Shown piece after piece: positions 9,930-19,711 of a DNA stretch of 64,000 bases. The notes under the pieces were generated by a model. It ran no database searches. It worked only from the letters and a program-made list of their open reading frames with translations, and was not told where the DNA came from. The stretch comes from Planctomyces sp. GTDB taxonomy: Bacteria; Planctomycetota; Planctomycetia; Planctomycetales; Planctomycetaceae. Both the position numbers and the translations under genes were made by a program. Position 1 is the first letter of the stretch. Each line of letters opens with the position of its first letter. Location: NCBI GenBank assembly GCA_016795105.1, contig JAEUIH010000018.1, forward strand, positions 5,491-69,490, given 5' to 3'.

Positions 9930-10232
9930 TTGATCAGTATTTTTGTTGGAAACCTGTCGTATCAAACGACGGAACATGAATTGTCGTCCCTGTTTGGACG
10001 TTATGGACGCGTTTCTTCTGTCCGCATGATGTCGGACAGATCCACTGGTACCCCCAGAGGCTTCGCGTTTGTCAGTATGCCCAGCTTTGAAGATGCAGAA
10101 GAAGCCATTATTCACCTGAATGGTGCATCACTCGGCGGACGTTCACTGACTGTCAATGAAGCTCGTTCAAAGGACTCCGTGGGCGGCCCCGCGATGCCGG
10201 GTCGTAGATCTGCACTGCTGGATTCACTGTGA
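9930..10232 (+). CDS. RRM-domain RNA-binding protein (glycine-rich/cold-inducible type)
   Basis: A 100-residue protein that is almost all one RNA recognition motif. RNP2 is IFVGNLSY (residues 4-11) and RNP1 is RGFAFVSM (about 43-50), with the spacing of the family. The start is TTG at 9930, fixed by a strong AAGGAGG nine bases upstream and by the family N-terminus. The short C-terminal tail (SVGGPAMPGRRSALLDSL) is not glycine-rich. Such proteins bind single-stranded RNA and are often induced in the cold. It converges on the AmmeMemoRadiSam gene with only 36 bases between stops. Confidence 0.92.
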   Translation: MISIFVGNLSYQTTEHELSSLFGRYGRVSSVRMMSDRSTGTPRGFAFVSMPSFEDAEEAIIHLNGASLGGRSLTVNEARSKDSVGGPAMPGRRSALLDSL

Positions 10233-10268: not shown

Positions 10269-13200
10269 TCACTGGTTTCCAGTTTCTCCGAGCAGCATTC
10301 CGGCGTATCCAACAACTCGCCGTGTATCCTGAGTAACGCTCGCACTCGTTGCGTAACCCGTCCGCACCACTGCACCAAGCTGGTTCATGGAACGAAGAGC
10401 TTCCATGACAATGACGGCCGGTCTCAGGCCACACATGCTGATGTTGCGTCGCGTGACTGTTGAATACAACTCAGACGGATCCAGCGATTCCATGGCATTC
10501 AATGCAATCTCGTCCAACTGGCGGTTCTCCGCATCAGAGGCAAAATGATTCATGTCACTGGAGATAATCAACAGAGGCCGTGGAACCATTTCGGCAATCA
10601 CGACAGCCAGCTGCCGTCCGATTTGAAGACACTCGGCAAGATTCGCATCTCCAATCGCAATTCCCACGACTTTCGAAGCTGGTGATAATCGACGCAGCAG
10701 TGGTAACTCAACTTCGATTGCATGCTCCTGGGCGTGAGCCTCTGCATCGAAAACCAATCCATCGATTCCCTGAACGAGTGCCTCAGCGAGCCGTCGATCA
10801 GAATTAACGAATCCACCGGGCAATGCCCATCGGTCACACGGAGCGCACGCCCACTTCGCTCCATAGGGTGTATGCTTGGGGCAAATGATGATCACACTCT
10901 CAGGAATCTGAACACGGCTCAGTGTTTGAGCTGCAATCCGCCCTGAATACTTCAGTCCTGCATGCGGAACCATCACAGCAGGCCAGACAGCCGTCGCAAC
11001 TTCACCTTCCTGTCTGAAGCATTCGTCAAGTTCTCGCTCAAGTAACTCACGCGACTCGGGATAGAATCGACCGGCAAGCGCCGCTGCACGATCATTGGAA
11101 TCGTGAGATACGTCTCTCTGAGTTATGCCTGCATCGCCTGCCTGTGCCGCAAAACTAACGACCTGTATGTTTGAAGAACCAGTGCGATCTCGCTGCTGAG
11201 CAACCTTCTGCAGAAGTTCTGTGGGCGAACATTCCGGATCGAAACTCCAGTCCAGACTTCTGCCATCGAGCAGTCCCAAAGCACGCTGTCGCGGGTCGAT
11301 GCCTCTCAAGTCTGCATCCGAAAAGGTTCCGTGCATCGCCGGATCCGCAAACTCCACAACGCGCACTGAAATCTGATGAACCGTCTTTGACGAAACCTGA
11401 TGCCGCTTAAGCAGGTCTGCCACGATACGAGTCAACTCCAGCAGGCACATCTGCAGGGGAACACCACCTCGCAACTCCACTCTGGAGAAAATCAGCGGGC
11501 CCCGGAGCTCAGGTATAAGAACCTGCAGGCCGACACCATCCACAGCCGTATCAGGAAAATCACGAGGAAAAAGCAACGGCACGGCCCCACTACTGCCTGC
11601 GATGATGTTTGCGCGAGCAAACTCGGCCAGCCATTGAAGTTGAGTGTCGTTCAGTCGAAATCGTCGACTCAGACTGCCGGCCCGAATGGCCTCATGGCGA
11701 AATCCACCATCAATCAGAAGTCCCTGAAAACGAAATAACACTGATCCTGGATCCCGCCATGCCGTCAGCGGCAATCCGGCTTTGCGGCAAACAAAGTCAA
11801 GGAATGTTCGCGAATCCCATTTCTGTTCGACTGCAACCACCGGGAGCAAGAGTCCGGATTTGTTTCCGTGAACGATTCGGATTCCGTGCTTCCCAACTTC
11901 AATCGCGCCAACCCTCGCCTCTCCCGTTTCTCGCACCTCTTCGAAATTGAACAGGACGGATACATCCAGGGTGAGATAGGGCAACTCCGATGCACTCACT
12001 GCCGGAAAACGTAAATCTTCCACTGCTGTCTTCACTGCCGACTGCTTCAGGGCCGTGAGCAATGGCATCGATTCCCGCATGGAACCAATGCACCCACGAA
12101 GTTGCCGATTTCGTTTGAGCGTAACGAAAACGCCCATGACATCCAGATCGGCTGCACCAGCAAGTGACGGATCCGAAAGGTGGACTTCACGCTTTTCGAC
12201 AGTTGCAGCAACGATCTCACACGCCGCACTGTGAATCGCAGTTTTCTGTTCAGGAGTTATCCTGAGACTACGCTCCACTGCCTGTTCCTGATTCACTTCT
12301 GACACCCCATGTTTCTGTGTTCGCTGGTCTCGACTGAATTCACTAATTCTGAGCGGCATGCGCTGAGCGCCCCAGTTTCCTGGAGTCCTGTCGAAATGTC
12401 CGGGAATCAGATGATGGCACTTCCGACAGCGATTCCCATCCATCCCCCAAACACCAAGCTGATACCAGTTTCGTTCAATCAGCAGTTCACCACAACCCGG
12501 ACACCAGGTACTCTGGTTCCTGACATCATTCACATTGCCGACATATGCATATCGAATTCCGGCTTCGAGGGCCGTCTGACGTGCCATCAACAACGTTTCT
12601 GGTGGAGTCCGAGGATACTCCATCATCCGGAAGTCAGGGTGAAAGGCAGAGAAATGAACAGGGACGTCCGGACCAACACTCTCCAGAATCCAGTCACACA
12701 TACGCCGCAACTCATCCGCAGTATCATTTTCTCCCGGGATCACCAGATTCGTAATTTCAAACCAGACGTCACTCTCATGCTTCAGCCACTTCAACGTATT
12801 CAGAACTGGTTCCAGATGTGAATACGTCACCTTCTGATAAAAGTCTTCAGTAAACGCCTTCAGATCAACGTTTGCTGCATCCATGTGCTGGAAGAACACA
12901 GGTCGAGCCTCTTTGCTGATGTAGCCCGCTGTGACGGCCACCGTACGCACGCCTGCAGCACGACAGTCTTTCGCAGTTTCGATCGCATACTCCGCCCACA
13001 CGATCGGATCGTTGTAGGTGAATGCAACACTTCGACAGCCCGTTCTTATGGCCGCCTCGACAATTGTCTCGGGCAACGCCAAATCAGAGAGTCGTTCAAC
13101 TTCTCGAGACTTCGAAATGTCCCAGTTCTGACAGAACTTGCACCCCAGGTTGCAACCCGCAGTTCCAAACGAAAGTACTGACGTCCCCGGATAGAAGTGG

Positions 13201-13448
13201 TTCAGCGGCTTCTTCTCAATCGGGTCAATGCAAAACCCGGTACTCTTTCCAAATGTCGTCAGCATCATCTCTCCGCCAATGTTCTGGCGGACAAAACAGA
13301 AGCCCCGATCTCCCGGCTTGAGACTGCATTCGCGAGGACACAGATCACACACAATTCGGCTGGCCTCAACCGTCTCATGCCACCATCCAGCCTTCAGGTT
13401 ACCGTCAGCTTCCGGTACGGCAGTGGGAGGTAAATCAACACGTCGCAC
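10269..13448 (-). CDS. AmmeMemoRadiSam fusion: radical SAM (AmrS) + AMMECR1 (AmrA) + MEMO1 (AmrB)
   Basis: A single 1059-residue polypeptide joins three proteins usually encoded separately. Residues ~30-350 are an AmrS-type radical SAM enzyme with C99-x3-C103-x2-C106, an N-terminal cysteine group (C34, C37, C41, C51) and a zinc-ribbon-like end (C316, C319, C341, C344). Residues ~395-585 are AMMECR1, with LRGCIGS at 450-456 and LLLPVVAVEQ. Residues ~785-1055 are MEMO1/AmrB, with PHAG (H829), HAQEH (H905, H909), SSDMNH (H968) and MCGLRP (1005-1010). Residues ~595-770 lack a clear domain but follow the AMMECR1 layout, without the LRGCIG motif, so they may be a decayed second copy. The biochemical role of the system is unsettled. 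Domain assignments are firm. Confidence 0.93.
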   Translation of the reverse strand: MRRVDLPPTAVPEADGNLKAGWWHETVEASRIVCDLCPRECSLKPGDRGFCFVRQNIGGEMMLTTFGKSTGFCIDPIEKKPLNHFYPGTSVLSFGTAGCNLGCKFCQNWDISKSREVERLSDLALPETIVEAAIRTGCRSVAFTYNDPIVWAEYAIETAKDCRAAGVRTVAVTAGYISKEARPVFFQHMDAANVDLKAFTEDFYQKVTYSHLEPVLNTLKWLKHESDVWFEITNLVIPGENDTADELRRMCDWILESVGPDVPVHFSAFHPDFRMMEYPRTPPETLLMARQTALEAGIRYAYVGNVNDVRNQSTWCPGCGELLIERNWYQLGVWGMDGNRCRKCHHLIPGHFDRTPGNWGAQRMPLRISEFSRDQRTQKHGVSEVNQEQAVERSLRITPEQKTAIHSAACEIVAATVEKREVHLSDPSLAGAADLDVMGVFVTLKRNRQLRGCIGSMRESMPLLTALKQSAVKTAVEDLRFPAVSASELPYLTLDVSVLFNFEEVRETGEARVGAIEVGKHGIRIVHGNKSGLLLPVVAVEQKWDSRTFLDFVCRKAGLPLTAWRDPGSVLFRFQGLLIDGGFRHEAIRAGSLSRRFRLNDTQLQWLAEFARANIIAGSSGAVPLLFPRDFPDTAVDGVGLQVLIPELRGPLIFSRVELRGGVPLQMCLLELTRIVADLLKRHQVSSKTVHQISVRVVEFADPAMHGTFSDADLRGIDPRQRALGLLDGRSLDWSFDPECSPTELLQKVAQQRDRTGSSNIQVVSFAAQAGDAGITQRDVSHDSNDRAAALAGRFYPESRELLERELDECFRQEGEVATAVWPAVMVPHAGLKYSGRIAAQTLSRVQIPESVIIICPKHTPYGAKWACAPCDRWALPGGFVNSDRRLAEALVQGIDGLVFDAEAHAQEHAIEVELPLLRRLSPASKVVGIAIGDANLAECLQIGRQLAVVIAEMVPRPLLIISSDMNHFASDAENRQLDEIALNAMESLDPSELYSTVTRRNISMCGLRPAVIVMEALRSMNQLGAVVRTGYATSASVTQDTRRVVGYAGMLLGETGNQ

Positions 13449-13692
13449 GTTTCGCCTCCTTTCATTACACGATTCAGACTAGTTAATGATATCAACTCGC
13501 CGACCCAAAACCTCCCTCAGCCACACCATCAAAAACTCCCCAAACACCCCACTTTCACACATTAGGTGGGAAGATGGTCATGAGTCTCAAAAAATGTCCT
13601 ATCGAGTCTCGTAAGCAGGTCGATAAAACAACTCTGGAAGTGAGAATATTGCTCTCCGATCCGTAGTCGAAGTTTTTGCCGGTTTTCCGATT

Positions 13693-14250
13693 ATGCCAAT
13701 CCTTAAAAAAGAACCGGACATGTACCCGGACAACCTGCTCGAGGACTGGGCAGAGACTCGCGAGGATGCCAACTGGTATGCCTTCTACACAATGTCACGG
13801 CATGAGAAGGAACTGATGCGGAGGCTGAGGGCGCAAAAGATTTCTCACTACGGTCCAACAATTCAGCAGCGAAAACGATCACCACAGGGACGAATCCGTA
13901 CAAGCCACGTTCCCTTGTTTGCGGGGTACGTGTTTGTGTTTGGCAATACGATCGAACGCTACGATGCAATTGCAACCGGCTGTGTATCCCGCTGTATCGA
14001 GGTGAAAGAACACAGTCAATTACTAACCGACCTGAGAAAGATCAGCAAACTGATCACCTATGGTACCGACGTCCAGCAGGAACCAAAACCAATCGTTGGG
14101 CGTCGAGCAGTCATCAAACGAGGGGCAATGGCAGGACTCAGTGGTGTTGTGACTCTGTCTGACAGTCGACATCGTTTGACTGTCCTGGTGCACTTCATGC
14201 AGCAGGGTGCATCGGTCGTCATTGATGAAACCGATGTGGACCTCATCTGA
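13693..14250 (+). CDS. NusG/RfaH-family specialised transcription antiterminator
   Basis: A 185-residue paralogue of NusG that binds RNA polymerase. The NGN domain shows NWYAFYTMSRHEKELMRRLR (about 27-46) and a central FAGYVFVFG strand. The KOW domain is GRRAVIKRGAMAGLSGVV (about 138-155). It is longer at the N-terminus than needed, and Met10 (13720) is an alternative start. Neither start has a clear ribosome site. Specialised NusG proteins at surface-glycan loci let polymerase read through long operons. This one lies at the downstream end of the glycan locus on the opposite strand, so it would have to act in trans. I did not find a recognisable ops-type site. Confidence 0.88.
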   Translation: MPILKKEPDMYPDNLLEDWAETREDANWYAFYTMSRHEKELMRRLRAQKISHYGPTIQQRKRSPQGRIRTSHVPLFAGYVFVFGNTIERYDAIATGCVSRCIEVKEHSQLLTDLRKISKLITYGTDVQQEPKPIVGRRAVIKRGAMAGLSGVVTLSDSRHRLTVLVHFMQQGASVVIDETDVDLI

Positions 14251-14262
14251 TCAGCCATCGAA

Positions 14263-15321
14263 TCACAGAGTCCCCAGCCTCTCTCGCCGATACTTGCCGG
14301 ACTGAACTCGTTCGACCCATTCCGGATGGTCCAGATACCAGCGAACTGTCAACTCGAGTCCCGACTGGAAATCCTGCGCTGGAAGCCAGCCCAGTTCATC
14401 CCGGATCTTTGAGGCATCGATCGCGTAGCGACGGTCATGTCCTGGACGGTCTTTAACATAACGAATCAGCGATTCACACGGAGCATGAGCAAGACCGGGG
14501 CGGAGTCGATCGACGGTCTCACAAATCATCTTGACAATGCTGATATTGGCCTGCTCGTTGTTTCCGCCAACGTTGTAGCACTCGCCAATCCTGCCACCAC
14601 TCAATACCGTCTCGATCGCTGAACAGTGATCTTCAACGTACAACCAATCACGAACATTCAATCCATCCCCGTAGACAGGCAGCGGCTTGCCTTCTATGGC
14701 GTTCAGGATCATTAGCGGGATCAGCTTCTCAGGAAACTGATAAGGGCCATAGTTGTTTGAGCAGTTGGTAATCACCACAGGCAGTCCATACGTGTGGTGA
14801 TATGCTCGCACAAAATGATCTGATGCAGCCTTGCTGGCGGAATAAGGACTGTTGGGTGAATACGCCGTTTTCTCGGTAAACAGTCCGGTGTCTCCCAATG
14901 AACCGTAAACTTCATCGGTTGAAACATGCAGAAAGCGAAACAGTTCTCGCTCTTCTCCCTGCAGCGCCGCATAGTAACGCCGAACCTCTTCCAGCATCCG
15001 GCAGGTTCCCAGTACGTTTGTTTCCACAAACGTCAGTGGTCCGTCAATGGATCGGTCGACGTGAGACTCCGCCGCAAAATTCACGATTGCGGCTGGCCGG
15101 TATTCCTCGAGCAGCTTTCGAACCAGATCGCTGTCACCGATATCCCCAGTGCATAAGACATGTTGCTCAGCGGTGGCATTTGGCAATGAATCCGGGTTTC
15201 CGGCATACGTCAGCTTATCGAGATTGATGATGCGAACATCACCCCGCGCGACAGCTCGCCGAACAAAGCAACTACCAATAAACCCAGCACCACCCGTTAC
15301 CAGAACCGTCTTCAAGACCAA
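14263..15321 (-). CDS. rfbB: dTDP-glucose 4,6-dehydratase
   Basis: Converts dTDP-glucose to dTDP-4-keto-6-deoxyglucose, the second step in dTDP-L-rhamnose and related deoxysugar synthesis. The 352-residue SDR-type enzyme has the NAD-binding GGAGFIGS near the N-terminus, LDKLTYAGN, NFAAESHVDRSI, the STDEVYG catalytic segment and Y-SASKAASDH (catalytic Tyr and Lys), then YGPYQFPEKLIP and DRPGHDRRYAIDASKI. All are diagnostic for RmlB/RfbB. No rmlA, rmlC or rmlD is in the window, so the rest of the pathway must be elsewhere. It follows the PEP-CTERM gene but is separated from it by a strong terminator. Its stop is 12 bases from that of the convergent antiterminator gene. Confidence 0.95.
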   Translation of the reverse strand: MVLKTVLVTGGAGFIGSCFVRRAVARGDVRIINLDKLTYAGNPDSLPNATAEQHVLCTGDIGDSDLVRKLLEEYRPAAIVNFAAESHVDRSIDGPLTFVETNVLGTCRMLEEVRRYYAALQGEERELFRFLHVSTDEVYGSLGDTGLFTEKTAYSPNSPYSASKAASDHFVRAYHHTYGLPVVITNCSNNYGPYQFPEKLIPLMILNAIEGKPLPVYGDGLNVRDWLYVEDHCSAIETVLSGGRIGECYNVGGNNEQANISIVKMICETVDRLRPGLAHAPCESLIRYVKDRPGHDRRYAIDASKIRDELGWLPAQDFQSGLELTVRWYLDHPEWVERVQSGKYRRERLGTL

Positions 15322-15400
15322 CCCCTTGTTTTAGTCGGGACTACATGGCTTCCATTGGGACTCAATCGTGAAAATTCTGGCCAATTTCGATGCTGAAAGC

Positions 15401-15438
15401 AAAAGAAAAACCCCGGGGTGATACTTCACCCCGGGGTT
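15401..15438 (-). terminator. Strong intrinsic terminator of the PEP-CTERM gene
   Basis: AACCCCGGGGTGA at 15409-15421 pairs with TCACCCCGGGGTT at 15426-15438 around a 4-base loop. Read on the minus strand the stem is followed by GTTTTTCTTTT, so it ends leftward transcription 33 bases after the PEP-CTERM stop codon. It separates that gene from rfbB. Confidence 0.9.
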
Positions 15439-15470
15439 CATTGGACGATCGATTCGATTGTCTGGATTAA

Positions 15471-16157
15471 TCAGCAGGATGCTGCGGATGCAGCCTTCTG
15501 ATTACGGCGACGTCGCATTGCGACGAAGGCCGGTACACCAGCCAGTGAAGCAAGCAGCAGAGTACCTGGTTCTGGATTTGCAGTGAACTGGAGACGAGTC
15601 GTTCCGTTGCCAGCAAGTGGGTCATTTGACGTCTTCTGCTGATAGACGAAGGAGACGAAGGCAGACTCGCCATTGTAGATCGGGTTGCCACCACCATTGA
15701 TGCCACCAAATCGCCAGCCAGTTGGAATGTTGTACTGATTTGGACCATTGACCATCTGCAATGCAAAGTCTGGAGATGTCGGGGTTACAGTCGTTAGCAA
15801 CCCTGACCAACCTGGAGTTACGAATGCCGGGCCAATCAGATTCTTCAGATCGAATCCGTTGATGTAACCATTTCCGCCACCAACAATCTGATTGACGACC
15901 GTCATGTTGACGGTGTAGCTATTGTTCGCAGGCGCACCACCTGGAGCAGTAAACACAAGATCAAATGGCACGTTTCTCTGGAACAGAGTCACTGTCATAT
16001 CGAGAACTTTTCCGTTCCCGATTGTTGGTGCCTGATTGACAGTCACAGACGCAATCGCTCCGTTACTGGAAGTCACGTTGGTAATCAACCCAGCAGAAGC
16101 GACAGAAGTGTGCAGCACACAAGCCGCGACGCACAGAAGTAAACTTTTGAACCGCAT
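15471..16157 (-). CDS. PEP-CTERM sorting domain protein
   Basis: A 228-residue exported protein. It has a signal peptide (residues 1-22, KSLLLCVAACVLHTSVASA), a Ser/Thr/Gly/Asn-rich beta-type body, and a C-terminal sorting signal: PEP at 195-197, a hydrophobic stretch GTLLLASLAGVPAFVAM, then RRRR at 215-218. This is the substrate signature for exosortases, and exosortase U is encoded two genes upstream. After sorting it would be released or attached at the envelope, probably in the surface matrix. The function of the body is unknown. It has its own terminator and a candidate promoter, so it seems to be a separate, possibly highly expressed unit. Confidence 0.92.
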   Translation of the reverse strand: MRFKSLLLCVAACVLHTSVASAGLITNVTSSNGAIASVTVNQAPTIGNGKVLDMTVTLFQRNVPFDLVFTAPGGAPANNSYTVNMTVVNQIVGGGNGYINGFDLKNLIGPAFVTPGWSGLLTTVTPTSPDFALQMVNGPNQYNIPTGWRFGGINGGGNPIYNGESAFVSFVYQQKTSNDPLAGNGTTRLQFTANPEPGTLLLASLAGVPAFVAMRRRRNQKAASAASC

Positions 16158-16245
16158 AAACGCACCCCGTTGAGTAAAAAACTCGTCCGATCAGCTGAGC
16201 TGAATGTATTGAAAACTGAATCGAATCATCCGTCACAACCTCCCT

Positions 16246-16275
16246 ATCTTCCCAAGACAGGAGAGGCTGTGTCAA
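16246..16275 (-). promoter_or_regulatory. Candidate promoter of the PEP-CTERM gene
   Basis: On the minus strand a perfect -35 box TTGACA (16275-16270) is followed after 18 bases by GAAGAT (16251-16246), a poor -10 box. It lies about 90 bases before the start codon, in the 220-base gap after the TPR gene. The -35 match is good and the -10 match is weak. Confidence 0.35.
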
Positions 16276-16377
16276 CAATTGAACAAAAGATTTGAAGAAA
16301 TTCTGAGAATAAGATTTGCAAATCAAATTCGCGTAAAAAACCACGAATATTCTGCATTGTACTGTTCTATACGGGTG

Positions 16378-17931
16378 TCACTGAACACCCTGGTTTCGCA
16401 ATTGCTCGGCCAGTCGTCGGTGCTGGCCGGCAATTTCCATTGAACCCAGCTTTTCGTAGGCCTGTGACAATGCATCATGTGTCTCAGCACGGTTTCCCAG
16501 CACGGGAAGGGCGGCTTCAAGATCGGCCGCAGCCTCCTGCCATCGCTCCAAAGCCATCAACACATGTCCACGTGTGTCTCGGAATTCAGGGCTCTGAGGA
16601 TATTCGGCAACCAGCGCATCGATGATTTCCAGAGCTCGCAATGGGTCCGGGGGGTCGCCTTTTGCCAAATACCAGGCAAAATTATTGGCGACGACAGGTC
16701 CATGAGGCAGAAGCTTAAAGGCCTGTTGCAGATGAAAACCGGCTTCCTTGACCTGCTGATTTTCGAGTTTATGTGTTCCGAGGATTAGATGGCTGAGCCC
16801 CACCGCACGACCTGTCACGATGTTCTGCTGCAGGAACAGGGTCACGTCTTCTTCACCCTCGATTCCCTCTTTTGTGTTGAGCAGCTTAAGAATCCGGTCG
16901 AACAGCAATATCTCATTGGGTGTGTTTTCGAGGGAAGCAGACAGCACTTGAAATGCTCTCCCTTTATTTCCCTTCACTTTAAGCAGTTCGTCGGCTTCCT
17001 GAATCCAGACCATTGTCAACGCCTGCCTCAGGGCCGGATCGTCGGCCAGTTTTAATCCCTCAACGATCACTTCCGCTGCTTTAGTTCGGTCTCCCGAGAG
17101 CAACAACGCCTCACTCCAGTTCAACCGGGCCTGCAAATCACGAGGATCTCTTTGACTGGCTTCTTCTGCGAATTGCACGATCTGCCCTGCGACGGAAGTC
17201 GATTGCAGTTCTTCACCTTTAATCTTCAGTGCACGCGAGAGTTTGATTCGGTAGGGCACAGCGGTTCGATGAGACTGGGCCAGGTGTTCTATGGCGGGTT
17301 CAATAATTCCGGTCTGAAAGTAGAGGTCTCCCAAAAGAGCATGTGCCATTTGCAGCTGGGGATTCTGCTGAATTGCCAGCTGAAGATGCAGTTCTGCCAG
17401 TTCAACGTCTGCTTTCTCCAGCTTCCCTTTTTCCAGGATGCGAGTGGCCTTCCACAAGTGAGCTGGGGCATAGACGGCCCGATCGTCAGGAGCAAGGTAG
17501 TTCATGAGTGCCGACATACGACTTCGGTCACCGGCTTGCTGTGCAGCACTTGCCAGTTCGAAAATTGATTCAGAGTCACGAAGCCCCAGTTCAACTGCTC
17601 GGTCGAAGAACAGCTGTGCTCGATGCCAGTCTTCCTTCTGAGCGGCCAGTCGAGCGGAGGTCACGTAGACCTGAGCCGTTTCATATGGAATCGTTGACTT
17701 CGCAACAATAACCGAAACGATACTCAAGATCGCGACCAGAAGTGAAGGAATCCCCCACCAAAGGCTCCGCAGATGACGGGAATTCCACCATTGAACCAGT
17801 AGCTGCAACAGGAATGATCCCGCGTTGCCCACCCAGCGAAAAGGCGCCCCGACGAACTCAAACGCCATCCGGTAACTGCGGGTCAGCAGCACCAAAGTCG
17901 TTCTGTAAATTGAATACAACCATGAAAACAT
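16378..17931 (-). CDS. Membrane-anchored TPR protein of the exosortase/EPS locus
   Basis: About 517 residues from ATG 17931. The frame is open upstream to a TTG at 17967, 8 bases after the exosortase stop, so the start is uncertain. An N-terminal amphipathic region precedes one transmembrane helix (WGIPSLLVAILSIVSVIVAK). The rest is helical repeats of TPR type, for example QMAHALLGDLYFQTGIIEPAIEHL, NNFAWYLAKGD..ALEIIDALV and RDTRGHVLMALERWQEAAADLEAAL. TPR membrane proteins of the PrsT/PEP-CTERM-system kind are regular companions of exosortases and EPS synthesis. It is tightly linked to xrtU and likely translated with it. Specific partner unknown. Confidence 0.85.
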   Translation of the reverse strand: MFSWLYSIYRTTLVLLTRSYRMAFEFVGAPFRWVGNAGSFLLQLLVQWWNSRHLRSLWWGIPSLLVAILSIVSVIVAKSTIPYETAQVYVTSARLAAQKEDWHRAQLFFDRAVELGLRDSESIFELASAAQQAGDRSRMSALMNYLAPDDRAVYAPAHLWKATRILEKGKLEKADVELAELHLQLAIQQNPQLQMAHALLGDLYFQTGIIEPAIEHLAQSHRTAVPYRIKLSRALKIKGEELQSTSVAGQIVQFAEEASQRDPRDLQARLNWSEALLLSGDRTKAAEVIVEGLKLADDPALRQALTMVWIQEADELLKVKGNKGRAFQVLSASLENTPNEILLFDRILKLLNTKEGIEGEEDVTLFLQQNIVTGRAVGLSHLILGTHKLENQQVKEAGFHLQQAFKLLPHGPVVANNFAWYLAKGDPPDPLRALEIIDALVAEYPQSPEFRDTRGHVLMALERWQEAAADLEAALPVLGNRAETHDALSQAYEKLGSMEIAGQHRRLAEQLRNQGVQ

Positions 17932-17974
17932 ATTTGTGAGATTCCGTAATTCAGAGGCCAGTGCCAACGACTGA

Positions 17975-19711
17975 TCATTTGCTGTAGATCTGACGTTTCA
18001 GCTCACCCCGAACCTGCATGTAACTTTTCAACAATCCATTGACCTGCTCATCAGAAAACGGCAGGAACGATTTTGCAAAACACTGGTACTGGATAAACGG
18101 AGGAACAAAACGCGGCTTTGTTTCAGCTCCCGCGCCCCGCTGTTTCGCAAACCGCTCATCAACCAGATTTCCCCTGGGTTTATCTGCTTTCCGCGATTGA
18201 GCTGTATACTGACCAGTACTGTCCGAAACGCTGAAGAATACCAATGCCTCCCCGTAAAGCTCTCGGCGCAGACGTGCCATGACAACCGATCCGTCAGTGA
18301 CTGGGACTCCCAAACGTGCGGAGAGGTCATCGGCCGAAAGCAATTGCTGGTCGATCACCTTCCAGCCAATCAACTCATAGCAGAGGCAAAGATCGTGTGC
18401 ACCGGGATAGGGATAGTCGACTGAGTAGACAGCATCCACAACTGTGTTGCCGTATTCCCATTGCTGGCTCGTCTTACCGAACGGATCCCCTTCAACTCGC
18501 CCAACTGTCTGGAATTTCCGCTGCTCCAGACCTTCAATCTCCTTCGGCAACGCGTCGGCTCCAAGTACTCGAACGACCAGCTCATCAGGGAAGATCGCCC
18601 CCAGAGTTGGTGCGTCATCAGGCATTAAAAGCACCTGAGCGATCCCGATGGCAGGATAAAGCAGTGATGCTGCGACAAACAGCGGCAATGCCTTCCGTCT
18701 TCCTCCGTCTGAATCAGGGCGCCCTGCGGTTTCCCCGATATCCGACTTCGATTTGTTTGCCGCCTGCTTCCTCCGATTTCCGCGAACCAACCAACGGAGC
18801 GAAAAGCTGAACGGAAGTTCCGCAAGGATGAAATTCAGAAACTGATCCACCGACAATATCAGTCCGACGGAAACACTAAATAAAACAGCTCCCAGGACGG
18901 TATGTTGCCATCCTTCGCTCAGGTCTATGGAATACTCCAGCCCCAGCGCCACAACAACGATTCGAAGCACGTTCTCTACTAATACCAGGCCCAGCGTGCT
19001 GGCGACCAGCAGAATGATGTGCAGAACACCACGCTTCAGGAATAGTCCCGCCAATAAGGCCACTGACAACAGAACGTACAGCGAATGCACACCACTGCAG
19101 GCATCCGCGATAAACAGCGGCTTGCTCGGAACTTCGATCACATTTGCATAAGTCAGATGCAGGACGCCAATTTGATCCAGGACGGCACTACTCATGCGAG
19201 TCGTAACATCTCTCAGTCGAACAATGAGCTCTTCGTCCAGTCCAAACGGCAGCGGTACGGTCAGCCACATCAATACCCAGACTGCTGCCCATCGAGCCGT
19301 CACTTCGCGTCCGGAAGCAAGGATGACGGACAGAATCCCAAATAAAGCACCAACTGCTCCAAGCCAGGGAGACCACACCCAGGTCGCGGCTGCCAGAACC
19401 GTCAGCGAACAGACGAGCGCCATGAACGCGGTCAGGAACGATGAACGTCCACTACTCGCCGCACTTCCCGTGTCGTCCCTCGACTTCAGCAACATCCAAC
19501 AAGCAACTGGCAGCAGTATCAGAAACTGGTAATGCTCGCGTTTCAGCAAGTGACCAAGATGCCAATAGACAATAGGCATGACCCCCGCGACACACAGGCA
19601 CAGCGCCAGCCAGCGGTGCCTGCTTTCGGACAAAACGCCCCGATCTGAAATTTCCACCGTGTTTACCCTCTGACTGACACATGACGATCGAAGACACTCC
19701 GAAACCATCAT
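17975..19711 (-). CDS. xrtU: Exosortase (XrtU-type) with C-terminal EpsI-like domain
   Basis: A 578-residue integral membrane transpeptidase-like enzyme that cleaves PEP-CTERM proteins. The exosortase core spans about residues 35-300 with roughly eight hydrophobic segments. The proposed catalytic residues are present: Cys205 in ADACSGVHS, Arg250 in ENVLRIV and His270 in WQHTVLG. Residues ~350-575 are soluble and resemble EpsI (DUF3485-type), a protein usually encoded beside exosortases of EPS loci. Exosortase U is the planctomycete group with such an extra domain. The gene is followed after 7-44 bases by the TPR gene and then the PEP-CTERM gene, a complete sorting set. The subtype assignment rests on domain layout and organism type. 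Confidence 0.88.
   Translation of the reverse strand: MMVSECLRSSCVSQRVNTVEISDRGVLSESRHRWLALCLCVAGVMPIVYWHLGHLLKREHYQFLILLPVACWMLLKSRDDTGSAASSGRSSFLTAFMALVCSLTVLAAATWVWSPWLGAVGALFGILSVILASGREVTARWAAVWVLMWLTVPLPFGLDEELIVRLRDVTTRMSSAVLDQIGVLHLTYANVIEVPSKPLFIADACSGVHSLYVLLSVALLAGLFLKRGVLHIILLVASTLGLVLVENVLRIVVVALGLEYSIDLSEGWQHTVLGAVLFSVSVGLILSVDQFLNFILAELPFSFSLRWLVRGNRRKQAANKSKSDIGETAGRPDSDGGRRKALPLFVAASLLYPAIGIAQVLLMPDDAPTLGAIFPDELVVRVLGADALPKEIEGLEQRKFQTVGRVEGDPFGKTSQQWEYGNTVVDAVYSVDYPYPGAHDLCLCYELIGWKVIDQQLLSADDLSARLGVPVTDGSVVMARLRRELYGEALVFFSVSDSTGQYTAQSRKADKPRGNLVDERFAKQRGAGAETKPRFVPPFIQYQCFAKSFLPFSDEQVNGLLKSYMQVRGELKRQIYSK

Follow-up and report, generated by a model that had tools for sequence, protein, structure and literature searches.

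The DNA analysed here (the window) is a stretch of 64,000 nucleotides from a Planctomyces sp. draft genome (assembly GCA_016795105.1, contig JAEUIH010000018.1, positions 5,491 to 69,490). Its minus strand encodes a protein of 1059 residues that unites the three components of the AmmeMemoRadiSam system, namely the radical S-adenosylmethionine (SAM) enzyme AmrS, AMMECR1 and MEMO, with a further domain lying between AMMECR1 and MEMO. Radical SAM enzymes produce a 5'-deoxyadenosyl radical, and AMMECR1 and MEMO1, both associated with human disease, show conservation from archaea to humans. We know of no molecular function for AMMECR1 and MEMO1 and, to our knowledge, no shared biochemical activity has been established for the system; none was found in the accessible parts of the literature searched. 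Nucleotide-base or isoprenoid modification was reportedly proposed for MEMO systems by Burroughs and colleagues in 2019.

A four-domain AmmeMemoRadiSam fusion protein

The features of the gene, all on the minus strand and in window coordinates, are as follows.

13455..13460, minus: AGGAGG, Shine-Dalgarno-like, six bases upstream of the GTG start at 13448 (read from the sequence)
10269..13448, minus: four-domain AmmeMemoRadiSam fusion protein, 1059 residues (open frame; in the phylum sample, 11 relatives match over the full length at 49-59% identity)
12345..13385, minus: AmrS-type radical SAM domain, residues 22-368 (TIGR04337, 577 bits, cut-off 220, E 1.1e-173)
13131..13154, minus: CX3CX2C radical SAM cluster motif, C99/C103/C106 (conserved in 88/88 open reading frames (ORFs) covering the motif)
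12417..12503, minus: C-terminal element with four cysteines, C316/C319/C341/C344, in the radical SAM part (conserved in 89/89 ORFs)
11721..12221, minus: AMMECR1 domain, residues 410-576 (PF01871, 146.9 bits, cut-off 25; solved relatives 1vaj, 1zq7 and 1wsc)
12084..12101, minus: LRGCIG motif of AMMECR1, residues 450-455 (L450, R451, C453 and G455 invariant in 106/106 ORFs)
11115..11666, minus: predicted second AMMECR1-fold domain without the motif (pseudo-AMMECR1, 'MID'), residues 595-778 (structural model, fold searches and hhalign)
10293..11090, minus: MEMO domain, residues 787-1052 (PF01875, 179.2 bits, cut-off 27; TIGR04336, 246.7 bits, cut-off 26)

The 1059-residue frame runs uninterrupted from 13448 down to 10269, and the domain order along the chain is radical SAM, AMMECR1, the predicted second AMMECR1-fold domain and MEMO. 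A first-pass annotation, made from the letters of the window, had placed the gene at the correct coordinates, leaving its strand unnamed, and had described all three AmmeMemoRadiSam components in one chain. This was confirmed by matches above the curated cut-offs of TIGR04337, TIGR04336 and TIGR04335, the last covering residues 408-576 (134.6 bits, cut-off 99). In the draft genome of 391 contigs (8.9 Mb, 99.96% complete), the whole fusion protein, PF01871 and PF01875 each matched once, in every case within the fusion gene.

Conservation was assessed in 106 ORFs in which AMMECR1 precedes MEMO, a set in which some genes were fetched twice and two frames are broken. Besides L450, R451, C453 and G455 of the LRGCIG motif, AMMECR1 residues D478 and R480 were invariant (106/106), H521 was kept in 104 and P482 in 93 of the 106 ORFs, and L533 differed in one. 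In the MEMO part H829 and H859 were present in 106/106, H905, E908, H909 and E912 in 105/105, and D965, H968 and C1006 in 104/104 ORFs. The four-cysteine element of the radical SAM part may bind zinc or a cluster.

When aligned to human MEMO1 (7kq8) with phmmer, H829, H859 and C1006 fell at the positions of H49, H81 and C244, which the accessible part of PMC11081632 gives as the iron/copper ligands of the human protein. On the strength of this alignment and the ligands named there, H829, H859 and C1006 are the likely iron/copper ligands of the MEMO part. The cysteines C99/C103/C106, the LRGCIG motif and the MEMO residues picked out by the first-pass annotation were all present and conserved in relatives; its choice of MEMO histidines is amended in that H829, H859 and C1006, rather than H905, H909 and H968, are the likely metal ligands.

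The fusion is common in its class

Searches with the fusion protein gave a near full-length single match in 12 of 392 genomes of the phylum, the window's own included and matches in pieces uncounted, and matches of any kind in 141 of 397 genomes of the class. For an architecture census we took one locus from each of 95 of these 141 genomes, assigned the parts with in-house profiles and scored the middle domain as present where more than 100 residues separated AMMECR1 from MEMO. The order radical SAM - AMMECR1 - middle - MEMO lay in one frame at 67 of the 95 loci, and two more had a broken MEMO end. Eight loci encoded AMMECR1 - middle - MEMO with the radical SAM part outside the frame, six AMMECR1 - MEMO without the middle domain, and one radical SAM - AMMECR1 - MEMO without it. 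The other loci were cut (two), had the reverse order MEMO - AMMECR1 (two), kept all three parts separate (two) or showed the radical SAM part alone (five).

The single-chain AmmeMemoRadiSam enzyme is common in the class of the window genome (Planctomycetota) and has a few relatives beyond it. The first-pass annotation raised the question of how far the fusion has spread: at least 67 of the 397 class genomes contain a four-part frame. Among the matches listed, full-frame relatives included two uncultured Gimesia, a Singulisphaera, a Phycisphaerae metagenome-assembled genome (MAG) and a Verrucomicrobiia-labelled MAG (L039, L041, L034, L053 and L044). Of 593 loci, the best 80 were taken into the survey, which was thin outside the phylum. 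Neither the triple fusion nor a second AMMECR1 domain was found described in the accessible parts of the literature searched (including PMC7159879, PMC7694686, PMC13386939, PMC6393860, PMC11081632 and PMC12710340); Burroughs 2019 may mention fusions.

The frame has no internal stop. We found nothing in favour of an assembly or frameshift artefact, the genome being a draft (391 contigs). The same four-part frame occurs in those 67 or more class genomes, including single-contig genomes such as G307, G385 and G238, which rules out such an artefact as the source of the fusion. We therefore assign the artefact a negligible probability and take the triple fusion to be real with near certainty.

Some relatives have other gene arrangements. 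At 17 loci encoding AMMECR1 - MEMO without radical SAM in frame, a radical SAM part lay upstream on the same strand in 12 (one gene being counted twice), and in the remaining five none was seen within the stretch read. Genome G352 (L112 4622-7764) is split between AMMECR1 and the middle domain: one frame encodes radical SAM - AMMECR1 and the following one middle domain - MEMO, which indicates that MEMO can be accompanied by the middle domain. Since radical SAM, or radical SAM plus AMMECR1, occupies a neighbouring frame in some relatives, the fusion is not essential. One family (L144, L149, L150 and L179) has a divergent AmrS scoring 256-278 bits with the in-house profile, against ~570-640 in most fused proteins; two members scanned with TIGR04337 gave 284 and 275 bits, above cut-off. 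These low scores make it look like a replaced radical SAM component. Two fusions from draft genomes (L137 and L183), one in the window's genus, carry a frame break inside MEMO that may be a sequencing error or a pseudogene.

PF01871 is tabled as an anaerobe marker in the accessible part of PMC13386939, with values of 3.38 and 50.66 that we read as percentages of aerobic and anaerobic genomes. As a sign of oxygen respiration, COX1 was sought in 40 fused genomes and matched in 38 of them, as it did in 27 of 38 other AmrS-matching genomes (6 of the 27 weakly); because both genome lists were hand-picked, this comparison is a hint only.

The middle domain resembles AMMECR1 in predicted structure

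The first-pass annotation had seen an AMMECR1 arrangement without LRGCIG in residues 595-770 and suggested a second copy. An AlphaFold model of the middle domain, built from 22 sequences, had a mean predicted local distance difference test (pLDDT) score of 83, with 133 of 212 residues at 90 or above, and a predicted template modelling (pTM) score of 0.78. Used as a Foldseek query against the PDB, it gave four matches at E < 0.001, all to AMMECR1 chains (E 8e-7 to 9e-6). VIA-align ranked the three solved AMMECR1 proteins first, with Z-scores of 13.3 for 1vaj (173 residues, 3.5 Å), 10.4 for 1zq7 and 8.8 for 1wsc; the next row, an unrelated structure, reached 4.9. In the full-length model, the order of helices and strands in residues 601-777 matched that of 399-582, minus two short helices and plus one short strand. 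The suggested arrangement is thus borne out by structure prediction.

Profile comparison pointed the same way. In hhalign, a profile of 99 middle domains aligned with one of 98 AMMECR1 domains from the fusions at a score of 63.7 and a probability of 96.3% (columns 26-203 on 5-194). The controls scored at most 19.9 (60 column shuffles), 14.2 (reversed profile), 14.2 (MEMO) and 22.5 (radical SAM), by which chance resemblance to AMMECR1 was rejected. Judged from the model and the profiles together, the middle domain very probably has the AMMECR1 fold.

The model was also compared with predicted viral structures, where the three matches at E < 0.001 were giant-virus AMMECR1 or Memo-like proteins. 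The BFVD entries A0A5B8IQW3, A0A5K0U9F1 and A0A3G5A0Z1 are AMMECR1-fold proteins encoded by giant viruses, and a 929-residue 'Memo-like protein' of Mimiviridae sp. ChoanoV1, which matches the model, may be a fusion. When the viral collection was scanned using the full alignment, 12 stretches matched, but none was confirmed as a relative.

Conservation and history of the middle domain

LRxCxG is absent from all 99 middle domains (90 distinct). In the hhalign register R451, C453 and G455 correspond to residues 653, 655 and 657 of the middle domain, and H521 to R722. Residue 655 is serine in 49 of 93 main-group middle domains, and 653 and 657 are variable. Across the 67 clusters of this main group, G621, Q666, G707, D633, P624, R722 and G638 are conserved at 90-100% and H706 at 85%; Q666, H706, G707 and R722 are mostly not kept in a second group of six members. 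Mean pairwise identity is 28% for the middle domain, compared with 51% for AMMECR1, 53% for MEMO and 64% for the radical SAM part.

Among 95 distinct proteins with AMMECR1 before MEMO, 87 kept the middle domain, with an AMMECR1-to-MEMO spacing of 194-229 residues. A fused radical SAM part accompanied it in 78 of the 87, compared with 1 of the 8 proteins lacking it, a difference that rests on three independent pairs and is not significant.

The middle domains fall into the main group (93 rows) and the second group (6 rows: L044, L051, L053 and L112, with L151 and L176 joined by weaker match). Against fused AMMECR1, the main group scored 58.2 (95.5%) and the second 39.5 (77.6%), with 40 shuffles each staying at or below 21.2 and 17.3, respectively; compared with each other, the groups scored 34.5 (54.6%). 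At equal depth, with eight draws each, the middle domain scored 53-64 against AMMECR1 of the fused lineage and 30-40 against 43 outside AMMECR1 domains, with no overlap; 12 AMMECR1 domains of related split, cut or middle-less proteins gave 46.9. The higher scores within the fused lineage favour duplication inside it, and we consider it probable that the middle domain arose in this way.

We built an AMMECR1+MEMO tree of 105 rows rooted on ten reverse-order (MEMO-AMMECR1) fusions. A branch with a Shimodaira-Hasegawa-like approximate likelihood ratio test (SH-aLRT) value of 98 separates the remaining 95 rows from these fusions. The second middle-domain group belongs to the first-splitting branch; L112 is absent from the tree. 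Presence of the middle domain requires at least three changes and fusion of radical SAM ten. If both groups are one domain, its history reads most simply as one early gain followed by three losses.

A model for the fused enzyme and its alternatives

On balance, the data as a whole seem best explained by a single-chain AmmeMemoRadiSam enzyme with a tandem-duplicated, motif-less and non-catalytic AMMECR1-fold partner. A tandem duplication of the neighbouring AMMECR1 in this lineage would have produced the middle domain, which would then have lost the AMMECR1 motif. As a pseudo-enzyme, which is its simplest reading, the domain might pair with AMMECR1, hold the active AMMECR1 and MEMO together or help bind a shared substrate; such a scaffold or pseudo-enzyme role is plausible, at somewhat less than even confidence. 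The radical SAM part would generate the 5'-deoxyadenosyl radical and activate a substrate bound at the AMMECR1 site (C453/R451/D478/R480), the MEMO iron site (two histidines and one cysteine) could perform a second redox step, and the intermediate would be passed between sites inside the chain. In this detail the scheme is doubtful. That the fusion locks the stoichiometry, as the first-pass annotation held, and that the three parts share one substrate or chain we only infer; the one-to-one chain, together with the upstream radical SAM in split relatives, supports joint action.

Several results weigh against this explanation. With a pTM of 0.46, the full-length model does not settle the domain arrangement or the hand-over between sites, and the Foldseek template modelling scores of the middle domain to AMMECR1 chains were just 0.41-0.55. 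PF01871 and TIGR04335 matched none of 22 middle domains (Pfam and NCBIfam, E up to 0.1), and residues 580-786 of the fusion protein had no match in either library at that threshold, so that the second AMMECR1 match envisaged at 590-770 is missing there. A middle-domain profile run against PDB sequences found no AMMECR1 chain among its seven matches, which were all designed proteins covering part of the length and were taken as chance. The smaller early hhalign sets were weak, at 12% for the main group against non-fused AMMECR1 and 21% and 13% for the second group, and with fewer rows the two groups gave 2.5% against each other. The domain is missing from 8 of the 95 distinct proteins and is therefore not essential. 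Finally, clustering 193 flanking frames around 24 target frames revealed no recurrent neighbour gene indicating a substrate: the two largest clusters spanned four loci each (representatives DUF1501 and DUF4159), and nine cluster representatives scanned against Pfam showed no substrate or partner.

Other explanations concern the origin and the role of the middle domain. It might have been acquired from a different AMMECR1 lineage, or more than once, instead of being a single copy of its neighbour. The sequences are not similar enough to yield a reliable tree, and because the groups resemble each other less than they resemble fused AMMECR1 (34.5 compared with 58.2 and 39.5) there is room for two separate copies; however, the non-overlapping equal-depth scores and the same location of the domain in both groups make this distinctly unlikely. 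The domain could also be a decaying leftover without a role, as the absence of the motif from every copy, its fast evolution and the three or more presence changes on the tree would allow. Its retention in 87 of 95 proteins, its narrow range of spacing and its own conserved positions nevertheless render this very unlikely, and the term 'decayed' used by the first-pass annotation was not upheld by that retention and the seven positions at 90-100% conservation.

A gain of function, with a new ligand site on the AMMECR1 fold in place of a scaffold, is a rather unlikely but more serious contender. It would account for the conserved polar positions D633, Q666, R722 and H706 of the main group and for R722 occupying the H521 position, but Q666, H706, G707 and R722 are mostly lost in the second group, and 28% identity compared with 51-64% for the other domains is more like a structural part. 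An extension of the pseudo-enzyme model, in which active AMMECR1 and pseudo-AMMECR1 form an internal asymmetric pseudo-dimer and thereby create, between the radical SAM and MEMO sites, a new surface for substrate binding or transfer, is speculative and on present evidence unlikely. If true, a single multistep enzyme would have replaced a three-enzyme pathway, its carrier or gate being a dedicated pseudo-enzyme.

The one-chain form would have its parts act together at a fixed ratio and offers a single protein for structural work and substrate hunting. The middle domain, which has ~190 residues and is retained by the majority of the fused proteins in one bacterial class, lies outside Pfam and NCBIfam coverage; as a natural variant of the predicted AMMECR1 fold lacking the motif, it provides a ready contrast for studying the function of the LRxCxG site.

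Genomic neighbourhood

The genes next to the fusion gene in the window are the following.

9930-10232: small RNA-binding RRM protein, adjoining the fusion gene and convergent with it (library scans)
13693-14250, plus: UpxY/RfaH-like antiterminator
14263-15321, minus: dTDP-glucose 4,6-dehydratase
15471-16157, minus: protein without an NCBIfam match whose tail, judged by eye, is PEP-CTERM-like
16378-17967, minus: TPR protein with a weak PrsT match
17975-19711, minus: exosortase U

The adjoining region 13693-19711 resembles the border of an exosortase/exopolysaccharide cluster.

Comparison with known systems

The protein agrees with the AmmeMemoRadiSam system (TIGR04335, TIGR04336 and TIGR04337) in having all three components above cut-off and their motif residues kept. 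It differs in uniting, in the order radical SAM - AMMECR1 - MEMO, what are separate genes there, and in its extra domain of predicted AMMECR1 fold. Two-part MEMO-AMMECR1 fusions, found in Pseudomonadota and some genomes of the window's phylum (10 rows, for example L070 and L120), likewise carry AMMECR1 and MEMO on a single chain. In contrast to the protein described here, their order is reversed, radical SAM lies outside the chain, and they fall across the branch with SH-aLRT 98.

At the level of single domains, archaeal AMMECR1 proteins PH0010 (1vaj), MM0484 (1zq7) and ST0229 (1wsc) appear to share their fold with both the AMMECR1 and the middle domain; they are single-domain chains of 207-230 residues, whereas the middle domain lacks LRxCxG. 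Solved relatives nearest to the radical SAM part are structures of pyruvate formate-lyase activating enzyme (3c8f and 3cb8), but against that family it scored 57.9 bits, below the cut-off of 231.75, and no glycyl radical enzyme partner was shown. Human MEMO1 (7kq8, 7l5c and 3bcz) has the MEMO fold in common with the C-terminal part, with H49/H81/C244 corresponding to H829/H859/C1006, but is ~21% identical and a chain of 293-294 residues without other parts. According to PMC11081632, MEMO1 is an iron-binding protein similar to extradiol dioxygenases, in which the authors of that study did not find dioxygenase activity.

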